In this document: piece by piece, positions 3,558 through 11,615 of the stretch
How positions within the stretch are numbered: position 1 is the stretch's first letter
How the letters are laid out: every line of letters starts with the position of its first letter
NCBI GenBank assembly: GCA_004297985.1
Contig: SCRA01000033.1
Coordinates: 1 to 64,000, forward strand
Source: a bacterium
Lineage (GTDB): Bacteria; Vulcanimicrobiota; Vulcanimicrobiia; Vulcanimicrobiales; SCRA01
Length of the DNA stretch: 64,000 bases
Direction of reading: 5' to 3'
Translations under genes and position numbers: made by a program
The notes under the pieces: model-generated
The model's database searches: none
Told to the model about the DNA's origin: nothing
What the model saw: only the letters and a program-made list of their open reading frames with translations

Positions 3558-3571
<14 letters not shown>
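2480..3571 (-). CDS. mqnC: Cyclic dehypoxanthinylfutalosine synthase (radical SAM)
   Basis: Radical SAM enzyme of the futalosine menaquinone pathway. It cyclises dehypoxanthine futalosine to the spiro intermediate that MqnD later opens to 1,4-dihydroxy-6-naphthoate. The 4Fe-4S-binding CxxxCxxC is seen in CNVHCTFC, followed by the MqnC-like stretches IMIQGGVNPEL and SLPGAGAEI. I chose the GTG at 3571 because GGAGGA lies just before it and because it gives a 363-residue protein of usual length. It overlaps the end of the upstream mqnE-mqnA fusion by 14 bases, so the two are very likely translated together. mqnB and mqnD are not in this window. Confidence 0.94.
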
Positions 3572-5633
<2,062 letters not shown>

Positions 5634-6263
5634 TTCTTCCTCCAGGTGGACCCGCCCCGATTCGAGATGCTGGGGGCGAGCTCCCGCAGGGCCCAGCGTG
5701 GAGCCGGCTTCGGGCGGTTACGGCGTCGGTGTCGGAACGGGCCTGTTTGTCCTCTCTTCGCAGATGGCCGATTCCTCGCGTTCAGCCGTGGTTAGCCCAT
5801 CGCTACGGCGGTCGCTGTCCAGACCGGCTTGCTTGGGATTCCGAACGGTTTGGGCACAGAGTTCGAACTCCCGAGCGTGATCCTCGGGGCGCCGGCCCGC
5901 TCGGGCCAGCTCGACGACATTATGCGGAGCTCCGGCGGGTGCGAACGAGGGTGCGTGAAACTGACGCCACCACGGGCTTCGACGGCCATGGGCCAGTTTC
6001 GCGCCTCCTCGCACATCAAGAAAGACATAACGCAGGTGCGTACCTGGTCGACCTGACAGATCGTCCTGCTCTCGGTTGTTGGTGGATGTTCGGGCACGGA
6101 GAGGTGGTCCCGAAAAAACGGGGCGAATCGATGGCATTGACGTATTCAGTAGCTCTATCGGGTCCCGTAGCAGATGCCGCATGGGCATTTCCAGACCACG
6201 ACTCTCTTAGCGCTTTTATAAGCACAGCAAACGATGGGTCTGCGCACCGTTGGCATGAGCTGG
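5634..6263 (+). other. Non-coding or decayed region, start of lower-GC island
   Basis: About 630 bases with no supportable gene. Several open frames of 75-190 codons exist on both strands but none has a ribosome site, a recognisable domain or plausible composition. The base composition falls from the typical 65-70% GC of the flanks toward the low 50s over this stretch. The mqn promoter should lie at its left end, just upstream of 5633, but I see no convincing -35/-10 pair. Confidence 0.5.
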
Positions 6264-7952
6264 CTAGCCGCCACCACATGCTGAGGACACGCTCACCGTG
6301 GTGGATACATTGACCTCCGTGGTTCCCGCAAGCGAGCCTGTTTGGGCGAGAAGGTTATTCCACGAGGCTTGATCAGTAAACACTCCAGGAGATGAAATGC
6401 CAAGGCCGACGAATGTATTTTGGAACGGTGCTGCAAGTATGACGTTTCCAGAGCTAGGATCTAACGTTCCTTCCCAAGACATTTGTGATGCAGGAATGGG
6501 CCCCACAGTTCTGGTGTATGTCGGATTACTGCAACCCCCACTACTGAACCCATCCGCGGCCAAGCTCAGCGAAACAGGAGACGTTGTAGGCGGAAGTGGT
6601 TCAGCAAAGCTGCCTTGGGGGCTACGCGCAATACTATCGCCACGCGAGCCATTGACAGAGAGCCCGTCATAGCTTTGATATGGGCCGTAGCCTGTTGGCC
6701 CGAGATTCGCTTGCGAAATAAAGGCGTTCGGATAGTTCTGCGGCCCGCCGTAATAGACCAGCGGATTTGGCGACACGTAAAACGTACAGAGATTTGTACC
6801 GTTGTAACAGTCCGAGCCCCATTCACCGAAAGCCATCTGGTTCCATGAAATCGTGTCTTCATCAGCCACGTCAACGCCAAAGAACGAGCCGTCTATTGAA
6901 TACGTCGATGTGCCGCTTTGGGCGATTGTATCCACTTTTGCGATCGAACAGCGCGAACAAGGGGTATAGACACCAGCTGCGTCGGTTCCGGGCCCCGTCA
7001 CATCGCTAGGCGCAGATGCGAAGAGCCAAGAAGCGTTATTCAGCGAAATGATCTGCGAGCTTATCCACGCGGTCCGCGGATCATAGATGCTCGGCAGCTG
7101 GCCAACCTCAGTGAACAATACCCCTGCTTGTGGTATGGCCCCACTCCAAATTACGAGTTCCTGCCCGCAGCCGTAACGCACGCTATTGTTTTGCATTATG
7201 ATCTGAGGCCCGTTGACTCGAAGCCACGGCGCAATTGAGCTATCGCTATTATACTGTAGGCCTCCCTCAGTCTCAGAAGCCTCAGACCCTGCTGAGCCGG
7301 TGAGCTCAAAATACAAATAGCCGACGTCTCCAGGGGCAAAACTAGACGTTCCACACTCGACGTTCACGAATCCCCAACCTGCACTGAATCCGCACGGCGA
7401 CACAAGTCGGACGTACACTCCTTTGGGGCTCGGCGGTGGATCCGGCGGTGAGCACGCGGATGAATAACCCATCGGCCGGACCACACGCGAGCGGCTAGCG
7501 GTTTGGCTAAAGCGGTTTGGCGCAGCAGGTTGGGCGGAGCTTACCGGAAGTCCAACTGTGAGCTTAATATACTGAAGGAGAGCGGGGTTGTTGCTTATGA
7601 GGCGGAGAGAAGCCCGATCTAGGTAAACGAAATCGCCGCGTTGATTTGGCGGCATCAATGTCATGAGTTTTCGCGCAAGTTCTCGATCAGAGCCGGTGAC
7701 CGAAGCATCGATGAACGAATCGAGATCTGCCGCTGATAGCGTCTTTCCACGTGCCGCGCCGAAGGCATTCGGGATAGCCGGCGCATACTCTGGAGCTTGC
7801 GACATGGTATGCCGAGATGTCGAAGAAGATTGTGGCACTGATGATTGCAACGTCTTTGGAAGCGTCCCTGCCGCATGCGACGAGCATGCGGCACTACACA
7901 GCAAGAGCGCACAGGCGAAAACAGCCAGCGCAGTCCGAGTGTGGTATGTCAT
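6264..7952 (-). CDS. Large secreted protein of unknown function
   Basis: I do not recognise this 562-residue protein. An N-terminal hydrophobic segment (about residues 8-24) ending in LCSAACSS suggests export, possibly as a lipoprotein, although the lipobox is not perfect. The next 150 residues are Ser/Pro/Ala-rich. The rest is Gly/Ser/Asn-rich with scattered cysteines (for example PCSRCS and GGCSNPTY), as in exported beta-rich proteins. A good ribosome site (AAGGAG) precedes the ATG at 7952. Codon use and GC are clearly lower than in the flanking operons, which suggests horizontal origin. The next gene upstream (8522) is also exported and lies 34 bases away. Confidence 0.7.
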   Translation of the reverse strand: MTYHTRTALAVFACALLLCSAACSSHAAGTLPKTLQSSVPQSSSTSRHTMSQAPEYAPAIPNAFGAARGKTLSAADLDSFIDASVTGSDRELARKLMTLMPPNQRGDFVYLDRASLRLISNNPALLQYIKLTVGLPVSSAQPAAPNRFSQTASRSRVVRPMGYSSACSPPDPPPSPKGVYVRLVSPCGFSAGWGFVNVECGTSSFAPGDVGYLYFELTGSAGSEASETEGGLQYNSDSSIAPWLRVNGPQIIMQNNSVRYGCGQELVIWSGAIPQAGVLFTEVGQLPSIYDPRTAWISSQIISLNNASWLFASAPSDVTGPGTDAAGVYTPCSRCSIAKVDTIAQSGTSTYSIDGSFFGVDVADEDTISWNQMAFGEWGSDCYNGTNLCTFYVSPNPLVYYGGPQNYPNAFISQANLGPTGYGPYQSYDGLSVNGSRGDSIARSPQGSFAEPLPPTTSPVSLSLAADGFSSGGCSNPTYTRTVGPIPASQMSWEGTLDPSSGNVILAAPFQNTFVGLGISSPGVFTDQASWNNLLAQTGSLAGTTEVNVSTTVSVSSACGGG

Positions 7953-7985
7953 AAGTGCTCCTTCTCATCTACCCAGCAAGATGAG

Positions 7986-8522
7986 CTAGCGCGATGTATA
8001 GTAGTCCTTCCAGGGGACCGTCCCGCCTTTTGGATCATTCGGCATCCAGGGGCGCGGCGCGGCGGGGCACCCCGGGGTTGCACCGGTGTGATCGAGATTG
8101 TCGGTTGGGGAATAAGCCTCGTTACAACTACCGTTGAGTACCATATAATTGCCGGGATAACAAGGACCCACACTGGCATTGAACACGATCAACTCGTGGC
8201 CGATGAAAGCGAAGCGAAGGGTCGGCGGTGCGAAGTACCGGGTTATCCTATGGAGCATCGCCACGTCCTTACGGCTTAATTGTGGAACACCTGGACCTCC
8301 GAGGTCACGCACCCTATAGCTCGGTGGCCCGAGCTGCTCGTATCCAGACGACCCGTGCACGTAGCACGCTATACCGTGGCCGACCTTGACACCAGGCCAT
8401 GTTCCATCGCCTAACGAAGGGCGTTGGGAGGGAATACGAGCTTGCGCAACGGCTCCGCGCCCAGTGCAAGACAGTTCACAGATCAGCAGCACAGCGACCG
8501 CCAAGGCGATTCGAAAAGTCAC
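7986..8522 (-). CDS. Small secreted protein of unknown function
   Basis: A 178-residue protein if it starts at the GTG at 8522, which is preceded by GAGG. The frame stays open further upstream, but that start puts the hydrophobic signal segment (IALAVAVLLICEL) at the N-terminus. The mature part contains several cysteines and ends WKDYYTSR. No family was recognised. It shares strand, low GC and spacing with the 562-residue secreted protein that follows, so both may be one transcript and one acquired unit. Confidence 0.6.
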   Translation of the reverse strand: MTFRIALAVAVLLICELSCTGRGAVAQARIPSQRPSLGDGTWPGVKVGHGIACYVHGSSGYEQLGPPSYRVRDLGGPGVPQLSRKDVAMLHRITRYFAPPTLRFAFIGHELIVFNASVGPCYPGNYMVLNGSCNEAYSPTDNLDHTGATPGCPAAPRPWMPNDPKGGTVPWKDYYTSR

Positions 8523-8850
8523 GTGAACCTCGGCCGCGTCAGATCGAATAGGCTCGTGTCTGTCGTCTCTCAACTCCAACAATTATCTCGCGCGACGACT
8601 AGATAAGCGGGTCAATCGTAGCGCCTCAGGCGCCAACCCTCCAATACTCTACGACCAATGTCGGCGCTCCCATGGAACTTGGCGCAGCTTAATTCGAAAA
8701 TCGCCCTCATCTTAATTCTCCACCCGGCAAGAAGAGATCCATCCGATGAGATGAACGCTTTCTCCCTTAAGGTATCAGTACATCTTGGTCCAGTAAATAA
8801 CCGAATGCATGCTCGCTTTTTGCTTCGGAAGCGATCCTCGGCTTGCGCCT
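8523..8850 (+). other. Intergenic region of the low-GC island
   Basis: No gene is supported here. The stretch is relatively AT-rich and contains a short perfect hairpin (GGCGCC flanking a few bases near 8620-8635). It may hold the promoter of the two exported genes to its left and the rest of the decayed ATPase to its right. Confidence 0.4.
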
Positions 8851-9297
8851 CTATAGACGTCTGCGACGATTGCTGCGCAACGTGGGCGGCGCGCCGCGTG
8901 CAATGCGGTTATCTCGGAGACTGGCTCGATGCGATCCAGTTGGCGCCGCAGGAGGCAGATTCGAGGAGCCGGTAAGCAGAAGGTGACCTCTCGTCTCATG
9001 CTGATCTACGATAGACTTGATCGCCAGGAGGAGCTTCGGGACCCGCTGGACCTCGTCTAGGATGGCGTGCGTCGGCAAGCCTGCAAGAAGGCCTTGTGGA
9101 TCGCGCGTCGCGCGATCGAGCACCCCGAGATCGTCGAGGGTCACATACGGCCGGCTCTCGTTCGCGAAGCGCCTGACGAGGGAAGATTTTCCGACCTGCC
9201 GCGCGCCACAGACTGCAACGACGCGGCTGCCCCGTAGCCCATCGCGGACGAGCGCCTCTAGCCTGCGGGGGATATGGTGTCTATTATCGTCCACCAT
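8851..9297 (-). pseudogene. Truncated AAA_14/DUF4143-type ATPase remnant
   Basis: The first 115 codons match the N-terminal half of the AAA_14 ATPases usually linked to a DUF4143 domain: Walker A CGARQVGKSSL, the segment PYVTLDD, Walker B HAILDEVQRVPKLL and sensor motif HLLLTGSSNL. Directly after that motif the frame turns into Arg/Pro-rich sequence and stops at residue 148, whereas intact relatives run to about 380-420 residues. No good continuation is found in the other two frames, so both a frameshift and a deletion are likely. The start is the ATG at 9297. It lies in the low-GC island. Confidence 0.75.
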
Positions 9298-9398
9298 CTG
9301 GACAATTATAGACCATCTAATGGACGATTTTCAGGATTTCAACGGTGCAGATCCGAGCTTCCCTAAGATTCATCCACCTAGTGGTCTAAAATCGTCCA
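9286..9398. repeat. Inverted repeats flanking the ATPase remnant start
   Basis: TGGACGATTTT at 9321-9331 is matched by its perfect complement AAAATCGTCCA at 9388-9398. TAGACCA (9309-9315) is matched by TGGTCTA (9382-9388). A third related copy, ATCGTCCAC followed five bases later by GGAC, is at 9286-9303, covering the ATPase start codon. The arrangement suggests an operator or the end of a former mobile element; I cannot tell which. Confidence 0.5.
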
Positions 9399-9458
9399 CA
9401 AAGCGGACGCCCCTGTCCCGCCAAGCAGCCTCCCTGGAAAGCTGCTTGGTTTCCAGCC

Positions 9459-11615
9459 CTACAGGAGCGTCTGTTCGGGCCTCGGCTCCAGGAGCGGGCG
9501 GAGCTGCTCCAGCTCGCCCAGGCCGATCTGGATCTTGCGCGGCTTGGTCCCTTCGTGGGGGCCCACCACTCTGAATTCCTCGAGCTGCTTCATCAGGCGC
9601 ACGGCGCGCGGGTGGCCAATGGAGAACTGCGACTGCAGTTGCGCCGTCGATGCGTACTGCGTCTCGATGATGAACTTCGCCGCGTCGTAGCAGAGGGGAT
9701 CGACCTGCTTGCCGCCGTTCTTCTCGTCGGCGTCGTCGAGCGGGGTGACCTCCACGTCGAGCAGATTCTCCGGGCGCGCTTGCTGCGCCCAGAACTCCAC
9801 CAGCCGCGCCACCTCGTTGTTGGTGACCAGGGCGCCTTGGCAGCGGATCGGCTTGGGGGCGTCGATGGGCAGGTAGAGCATGTCGCCGCGCCCCAGCAGG
9901 CGTTCCGCTCCCGCCATGTCCAGGATGGTGCGCGAGTCGACCTGCGAGCTAACGGCGAAGGCGATGCGGCTGGGGATGTTCGCCTTGATGATGCCGGTGA
10001 TCACGTCGACGGAGGGGCGCTGCGTGGCCACCACCAGGTGGATGCCCGTGGCGCGCGCCAACTGGGCCAGGCGGCAGATCGTCGTCTCCACCTTCGCCGG
10101 CGCCACGAGCATCAAGTCTGCCAGCTCGTCGATCACCACCACCACGTACGGCAGGCGCTCCTCGGGATACTTGGCGTTGTACTCCTCGATCTTGCGCACA
10201 CCGGCTTTAGCGAAGCGCTCGTAGCGCTGATCCATCTCCTTGGTGATCTCGAAGAGCGCGCCGGCGGCCATGCGCGCATCGGTGATGACGTCTTTGATCA
10301 AGTGGGGGATGCCGTTGTAGACGGTGAGCTCGACGCGTTTGGGATCGATGAAGAGCATCTGCACCTGGTCCGGCGTGGCGCTGACCAAGAGCGAGGCGAT
10401 GATGCCGTTGAGGCAGACGGACTTGCCGGAGCCCGTGGCCCCGGCCACCAGCAAGTGCGGCATCTTGCCGAGGTCGCCGAAGATCGGGCGCCCCGTGATG
10501 TCCTTGCCCAGAGCCATCGGCAGCGGCGGTATCTGGCCGCGATGGGGAAGCGCTTCGAGGATCTCGCGAATTGCCACGATGGAGACGTTGGCGTTGGGCA
10601 CTTCGATGCCCACGGCACTCTTACCGGGAATGGGCGCCTCGATGCGCACGGAAGATGCCGCTAGCGCCAGCGCCAGATCGTCGGCCAACGCGGAGATGCG
10701 CGAAATCTTCACGCCGCGCTCGGGCTTGAGCTCGTAGCGCGTGATCGAGGGGCCGCGCTCGATGTGCACCACCTTCGCGCCAACGCCGAACGAGGCAAGC
10801 GTGTCCTCTAAGAGATGGGCGCGGTTCGATTCGTCGGCCACGCGTACGTCGGGCCGGTCGAAGAGCGCGAGATCGGGGAGGCGATAGACACGCGGGCGTC
10901 CGTCGTCCACCAGCTCGTGCTCGAAGGCAGGCTCCACGTTGCGCGGCGCGGGCGGCGTCGCGACGAGGCGCGTGGGTACGGCCAGCGGGGCCTCGTCCTC
11001 CACGTCGATCTCCTCGATCTCGACTTCTGCGGCGGCGATCTCCTCCGCAGCCGGAGCCGGCGCTAGCGGCACCTTCGCACGCGCCTTGAATCGCGCCGCG
11101 GGCTTGGGCACGCGCGGCATCGCGCGCGCAACTAGGCGGCCCAGCGCGATGCACCACCCGGCGAGCACGCCGATCACGCGTTTGAGCGAGACGCCGGTGA
11201 TCCAGACCAGCACACCGAGCGCGGCCAGCCCGATCACGATGACACGGCCCACGTCGCCCAAGACGCCGGACAGAGCGCTGGAGAGCACGCCGCCCACGAC
11301 GCCGCCCGCCGGCCCCAAGGCCGCCAACGTGAGAAGGTAGAGGGCGCAGGCGGCAGCCCACAGCGTGCGGATCATCTGCGGGACGCTGATCTCGAGGAAG
11401 ACGATGCCGGCCAAGACGGCGACAAGCCCGGGGAAGCCCCCTGCCGCGTGCCCGAAGAGCGTGACGATCCCCCAGCCGATCCAGCCGCCGAGCGCGCCCG
11501 CGTGCTGCGGGGAGACCACCGTGACGGTGAGCAGGGCGGCTATGCCCAACAGAGCGATGCCGACGAGCTCGAAGTTGAGACGGGAAACCGTCGCTCTACG
11601 CCTGACGCGCGCCAT
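9459..11615 (-). CDS. ftsK: DNA translocase FtsK/SpoIIIE
   Basis: A 718-residue septal DNA pump that clears chromosome ends from the division plane. The N-terminus carries about four membrane helices (residues 15-150), then an acidic Pro/Ala linker (about 180-235), the alpha/beta translocase motor with Walker A GATGSGKSV near 392-400 and Walker B VVVVIDELADL near 490-500, and the C-terminal winged-helix gamma domain (about 650-718, YASTAQLQSQFSIGHPRA) that reads the polar KOPS/SRS sequences. The linker is short compared with E. coli FtsK and resembles SpoIIIE-size proteins. No clear ribosome site precedes the ATG. It is divergent from the nuclease gene at 11727. Confidence 0.95.
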   Translation of the reverse strand: MARVRRRATVSRLNFELVGIALLGIAALLTVTVVSPQHAGALGGWIGWGIVTLFGHAAGGFPGLVAVLAGIVFLEISVPQMIRTLWAAACALYLLTLAALGPAGGVVGGVLSSALSGVLGDVGRVIVIGLAALGVLVWITGVSLKRVIGVLAGWCIALGRLVARAMPRVPKPAARFKARAKVPLAPAPAAEEIAAAEVEIEEIDVEDEAPLAVPTRLVATPPAPRNVEPAFEHELVDDGRPRVYRLPDLALFDRPDVRVADESNRAHLLEDTLASFGVGAKVVHIERGPSITRYELKPERGVKISRISALADDLALALAASSVRIEAPIPGKSAVGIEVPNANVSIVAIREILEALPHRGQIPPLPMALGKDITGRPIFGDLGKMPHLLVAGATGSGKSVCLNGIIASLLVSATPDQVQMLFIDPKRVELTVYNGIPHLIKDVITDARMAAGALFEITKEMDQRYERFAKAGVRKIEEYNAKYPEERLPYVVVVIDELADLMLVAPAKVETTICRLAQLARATGIHLVVATQRPSVDVITGIIKANIPSRIAFAVSSQVDSRTILDMAGAERLLGRGDMLYLPIDAPKPIRCQGALVTNNEVARLVEFWAQQARPENLLDVEVTPLDDADEKNGGKQVDPLCYDAAKFIIETQYASTAQLQSQFSIGHPRAVRLMKQLEEFRVVGPHEGTKPRKIQIGLGELEQLRPLLEPRPEQTLL

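Follow-up and report, generated by a model that had tools for sequence, protein, structure and literature searches.

A variable insertion slot between ftsK and mqnE-mqnA that holds a GC-poor block with an intact pair of putative exported-protein genes in an Eremiobacterota genome

The window analysed here is a 64-kb stretch of contig C18 in a 3.19-Mb draft genome of 90 contigs (genome label G000). Between a fused mqnE-mqnA gene and ftsK it contains a GC-poor block (5640-9450) with two genes, p198 and p562, for proteins that appear to be exported. The ftsK-mqnEA interval is a variable insertion slot, and it is variable beyond genus g1. The p198/p562 pair is intact and not decaying, and p562 is shown to be under purifying selection relative to its paralogue; the stump of an ATPase gene and an IS3-like piece are the decayed part of the block. 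We consider it probable that the slot took in a p198/p562 operon beside the ATPase stump, and that the pair is an intact and exchangeable module of exported proteins. The module would consist of a surface lipoprotein and its exported partner. A variable slot with accessory surface genes is of a known kind; the two protein families and a genus-specific C-terminal domain are the new part.

The p198/p562 gene pair

The pair and the domain it carries are located as follows.
6264..7952, minus strand: p562, 562 aa, exported, probable lipoprotein; Cys23 invariant in 7 aligned rows; no significant family match
6267..6611, minus strand: genus-only C-terminal domain of p562, ending in ACGGG, defined by alignment; found six times, in 3 of 61 genomes, all belonging to genus g1
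7986..8528, minus strand: p198, small exported protein, 180 aa from the GTG at 8528; signal peptide read by eye; 33 bp upstream of p562

An earlier reading of the same DNA, the initial annotation, described two exported proteins with ribosome sites. This description holds: AAGGAG precedes the ATG at 7952 (p562) and GAGG precedes the GTG at 8528 (p198), with export, signal peptides and ribosome sites judged by eye from the sequence. Cys23 of p562 is conserved in all seven aligned rows; the same alignment has further invariant cysteines at 200, 262, 332, 335, 382 and 389. We infer that p562 is exported, lipidated at Cys23 and disulfide-bonded in its outer part, and that p198 is an exported partner.

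The two copies of p562 in G000, one in the window and one on contig C9, share 69% amino acid identity over 557 codons, with 132, 100 and 280 differences at codon positions 1, 2 and 3. Nonsynonymous (dN) and synonymous (dS) divergence are 0.22 and 1.51 by NG86, and 0.24 and 1.13 by YN00. The resulting dN/dS of about 0.15-0.2, which is rough as dS is near saturation, indicates constraint. The block had been called decaying; this applies to the ATPase stump and the IS3 relic but not to the exported pair.

Pfam, PHROGs, PADLOC and PDB sequences gave no significant match to either protein, and NCBIfam gave none to p562; searches against PADLOC models at E 0.01 and PHROGs at E 1 returned nothing. 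No relative of p562 was found in viral contigs (pattern scan) or plasmids (tblastn); these searches covered p562 and not p198, and the phage collection was not searched. The distribution is patchy: of 149 genomes from the phylum, 11 have relatives of p562 at E 0.001, its own included, and three of these (G031, G055 and G122) give only weak partial matches. A scan of named genomes with one peptide pattern finds five p562 loci, in G036, G081, G049, G020 and G008. Relatives of p198 are found at 29 places in 18 of 61 genomes, again with its own included. The two families, known so far, as far as these searches reach, from a single phylum with mostly uncultured members, behave like mobile accessory surface genes: they have entered unrelated sites, with differing partners and differing C-terminal domains. 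A defined set of loci is now at hand on which to study what moves the genes, what they do at the surface and what the genus-specific domain means.

A Neprosin-like fold, guessed by eye, is unsupported: PF03080 has no match in seven members or in any of 147 genomes, but control genomes also gave none. The pair is not described in those parts of the literature on Eremiobacterota genomes and lipoproteins, DUF4143 AAA proteins and hotspots that were covered by the search, which is no proof that it is unpublished.

Composition of the block

The initial annotation placed a low-GC island at 5640-9450. The block is real, with 57.3% GC against 66.2% for the contig without it; however, the drop begins near 6000, and the first 360 bases (5640-6000, 67.3%) are not GC-poor. 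The sliding-window check bears this out: the core (6100-8799) has 55.3% GC, lower than all 1446 other 2.7-kb windows of the contig, the minimum of which is 62.5%. GC content at third codon positions (GC3) is 54.4% in p562, the lowest among 42 heuristically chosen open reading frames (ORFs) of 200 aa or more in the window; the next lowest is 64.9%. The fused mqnE-mqnA, the genes of the block and ftsK are all on the minus strand. Read from ftsK, the order is repeats with a promoter-like site, the ATPase stump, 423 bp without a gene, p198, 33 bp, p562 and the IS3-like relic.

Low GC is not peculiar to the window. At all seven loci measured, p562 is GC-poorer than its own locus; p198 is clearly lower at four of five loci and about equal at C9, and one p198 of G055 has a GC3 of 0.84. 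Because p562 is GC-poor wherever it was measured, the composition mostly travels with the gene family and identifies no donor. As the window copy also has the genus-only domain, low GC argues only weakly for a foreign origin. Both repeated movement within the phylum and weak codon selection are compatible with this composition. The latter is part of a less likely reading that nevertheless has to be taken seriously, in which the pair are old, fast-evolving resident genes, made AT-richer by weak expression and weak codon selection, and empty sites in relatives are deletions. The low GC that accompanies p562 from locus to locus is as this reading would have it, and so is the genus-only domain joined to the protein; the flanks of other p562 copies, described below, are harder for it to explain.

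The ftsK-mqnEA slot in relatives

The features needed for comparing the slot between genomes are its two flanks and the ATPase stump.
3558..5633, minus strand: fused mqnE-mqnA, flank, 691 aa; NCBIfam TIGR03700 at residues 12-362, below cut-off; Pfam PF02621 in the C-terminal part, E 4.5e-63
8952..9297, minus strand: AAA_14/DUF4143 ATPase, 5' remnant of 114 codons; 88% amino acid identity to the intact G001 gene; Pfam AAA_14, E 8.9e-17; PADLOC PDC-S01
9459..11615, minus strand: ftsK, flank; NCBIfam PRK10263, below cut-off; 95% identical in G003

In G003 (MqnEA 97% and FtsK 95% identical) about 100 bp separate the two genes. A close relative in which mqnE and ftsK are adjacent, which had been proposed as a check, thus exists. 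In G001 (flank proteins 91% and 89% identical) the slot is 3.2 kb long and encodes an intact 420-aa AAA_14/DUF4143 protein, which matches PADLOC PDC-S01, and a protein with a Pfam match to AIPR. The contig of G002 ends at this site, which makes that genome unusable here. Since the intact ATPase gene of G001 has its counterpart in the stump, with similar repeats upstream, either the slot already contained the ATPase when the two lineages separated, or the gene was gained twice. Variation extends outside the genus. In four genomes of family f2 (G044, G049, G036 and G020) the gap measures 675-731 bp and contains related open frames, of which that of G044 encodes a PAP2 protein. The gap in G031 is larger (1771 bp), and in G004 and G030 ftsK and mqnE-mqnA are further apart. 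The slot of G008 (L065 4435-5147) holds genes for a PIN-domain protein and a Phd/YefM antitoxin.

The slot may also be read as a small defence island, in which p198/p562 would be a module that acts at the envelope in defence or antagonism and has taken the place of the ATPase-AIPR genes. The match of the ATPase to PDC-S01, the AIPR match in G001 and the PIN and Phd genes that occupy this slot in G008 all point in this direction. However, p198 and p562 themselves match no PADLOC model and no PHROG at the thresholds given above, the AIPR protein is without a PADLOC match, and the slot of the four f2 genomes holds related frames of which that of G044 is PAP2. We regard the defence reading as improbable.

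Other p562 loci and empty sites

Nine near-complete p562 loci were seen, that of G008 being broken. p198 and p562 occur together, in either order, at five loci in four genomes: the window, G000:C9, G044, G036 and G049. Further p562 pieces of G044, at two contig ends, are left out of the counts. An empty-site test of four loci (the window, G000:C9, G036 and G044; outside the test are G049, G030, G020, G081 and G008) finds the flanks together in at least one near relative in every case. The genes that flank the C9 copy, which we take to be apt and otnK, adjoin directly (0 bp) in G001 and have 40 bp between them in G002; in G000 they enclose about 3.5 kb with p198 and p562. The flanks of the G036 locus, presumably flagellar genes, are separated by 67 bp in G019 and by 30 bp in G054. 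At the G044 locus, which follows a gene that we read as gyrA, there are 130-520 bp in G042, G049, G089 and G057 versus about 3.2 kb in G044. Two rows are unusable: G003 at the C9 site (contig end) and G059 at the G036 site (one flank only). In G058 the G036 site is not empty: the leader is the same and the signal peptide similar, but a different protein comes after them, and the other flank is on another contig. This looks like replacement of the gene body.

The initial annotation took the block to be acquired, and its view is supported by the flanks in G003 and by the empty site of the second copy in two relatives, with the caution that G003 may be a deletion. If the pair were resident genes, losses would have had to close the gap at the second copy to 0 bp (G001) and 40 bp (G002), and the gap at the G036 copy to 67 bp (G019) and 30 bp (G054). 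The G003 junction, which may be a deletion scar, speaks for that reading.

Three minor features of these loci should be recorded. Stretches related to the leader of the G036 p562 (L066 5440-5800; also L145, L147, L148 and L137) stand before further lipoprotein-like genes in the same genus, and the G036 leader has no Rfam match at E 0.5. The C9 locus (L053 8123-11179) also contains degenerate second pieces of p562 and p198, as after a tandem duplication. G008 (L114 4864-7092) has two very similar p198 genes about 1.7 kb apart.

C-terminal domain and probable partner exchange

The genus-only domain makes up the last 110 residues of p562 and is present on both G000 copies, while several relatives' p562 end otherwise, with a sequence like FGDPNLP. 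The same ACGGG-ending domain is also found in genus g1 on a prepilin-like protein and on a further protein, on G000:C2 (L055 3548-4927, L057 3412-5283, L054 582-1694). The prepilin-like protein has near-complete copies in G000 and G001 and a piece at a contig end of G003; an N_methyl match lies in G000:C36.

In trees, the two p562 of G000 are sisters (96/96), whereas their p198 neighbours fall in different groups. Forcing the two p198 together was rejected by a post hoc approximately unbiased (AU) test (p 0.0087). The p198 tree has 12 rows out of the 29 places (G008b and G013 left out) and the p562 tree eight of the nine loci (G008 left out). Partner genes and C-terminal domains thus seem to be shuffled or exchanged, as far as alignments and trees can tell. 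The different groups of the two p198 of G000 also count against the resident-gene reading.

A broader and rather doubtful idea is that Eremiobacterota have phylum-restricted, mobile, mix-and-match cassettes for surface lipoproteins, in which the ACGGG domain might be a swappable sorting or docking tag that gives different cargo to one surface machine related to type IV pili.

Remnants in the block

The other features of the block are relics and geneless sequence.
5839..5954, minus strand: IS3-like orfA relic; the end of contig C47 matches it in 117 columns at 90% nucleotide identity
8529..8951, no strand: non-coding, from p198 to the ATPase stump; GC 55.1%; the alignment with G001 stops at about 8952
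9279..9408, no strand: imperfect repeats around a TATAAT box in the ATPase upstream region, from a repeat search; similar repeats in G001

The ATPase had been called broken, and it is: 114 of 420 residues are left, with the start of AAA_14 only and no DUF4143, while the intact G001 protein has both domains. Long non-coding stretches, at 5640-6263 and 8529-8951, are present as described. Inverted repeats had been listed among the signs of an acquired block. They are present around 9279-9408 but belong to the ATPase upstream region, because similar repeats precede the intact ATPase gene of G001. A promoter-like site lies at 9334-9305; the promoter scan total of 3 is not above chance (2.0, sd 1.2).

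It had also been stated that no integrase or tRNA marks the ends. Pfam finds no integrase among the block's four larger candidate ORFs; the IS3-like relic had been missed. We take the relic to be a putative IS3 OrfA from a sequence motif, and Pfam found nothing on that window ORF. Just an orfA piece was found; there is no orfB, and no terminal repeats were identified (no model search for repeats was made). Matches of 54 bp to the relic lie at the ends of contigs C8 and C83. Copies at contig ends are as expected of a repeated element that breaks assembly.

These copies, together with the 90 contigs of the draft, could also suggest an assembly artefact in which foreign or chimeric sequence became attached to the contig. 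The ATPase stump lies in one contiguous stretch with both flanks, however, all of them matching G001, and a diverged second copy of the pair lies in another contig with flanks that match relatives. An artefact is therefore very improbable.

Proposed course of events

In the reading preferred here, the operon would have inserted into the ATPase gene, with loss of most of that gene, or would have taken its place. IS3 copies may have helped the insertion, since in G019 an IS3-type transposase gene (rve, HTH_21) adjoins a p198. In G008 a resolvase adjoins the broken p562. Transcription of the operon would run the same way as that of the flanking genes and might start at the former promoter of the ATPase gene. 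p562 would then be exported by Sec and lipidated at Cys23, with its cysteine-rich part folding outside the cytoplasm; p198 would be its exported partner, and the two would form an exchangeable surface module. The role favoured for such a module is at the cell surface, varying between strains.

Several observations weigh against this course of events. No mover was identified: six inserts compared by BLAST share only coding similarity, and the longest exact word common to the junction neighbourhoods is 8 nt for the window and 7 nt for C9. No repeat of at least 14 nt joins the window junctions, the ends of which are blurred, and no target duplication was found; ARAGORN finds no tRNA gene in the 64-kb window. 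The G003 junction starts with an 11-mer that recurs upstream of the ATPase gene, a length reached in 4 and 13 of 2000 mononucleotide shuffles, so that G003 may once have had an insert and lost it. The AU test followed the inspection of an earlier tree, and both trees have few rows and long branches. AlphaFold2 models, built from 6 and 3 sequences, are poor (predicted local distance difference test, pLDDT, 34 and 53), and the p198 model has no PDB match with E below 0.001; surface location and function are judged by sequence features only.

Likeness to known systems

Chromosomal hotspots and small genomic islands also have conserved flanks, contents that vary among close relatives, defence-type genes and odd composition. 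The block differs from them in that no integrase, tRNA or flanking direct repeats were found, in its size of about 3.8 kb and in its exported protein pair. The stump resembles the AAA_14/DUF4143 ATPases of PDC-S01 by its identity to the G001 protein but is truncated as described. The orfA-like relic recalls the IS3 family and has relatives at three contig ends, but here it is a fragment only. Within the p198/p562 families of Eremiobacterota, which are defined here, p562 of the window has the genus-only C-terminus rather than the FGDPNLP-like end.

A minor observation concerns the flank. The MqnE-MqnA fusion (691 aa) is also found in G001 and G003. In seven genomes of other families that were examined MqnE and MqnA are two adjacent pieces, and in G031 they form one stretch with an internal TGA.

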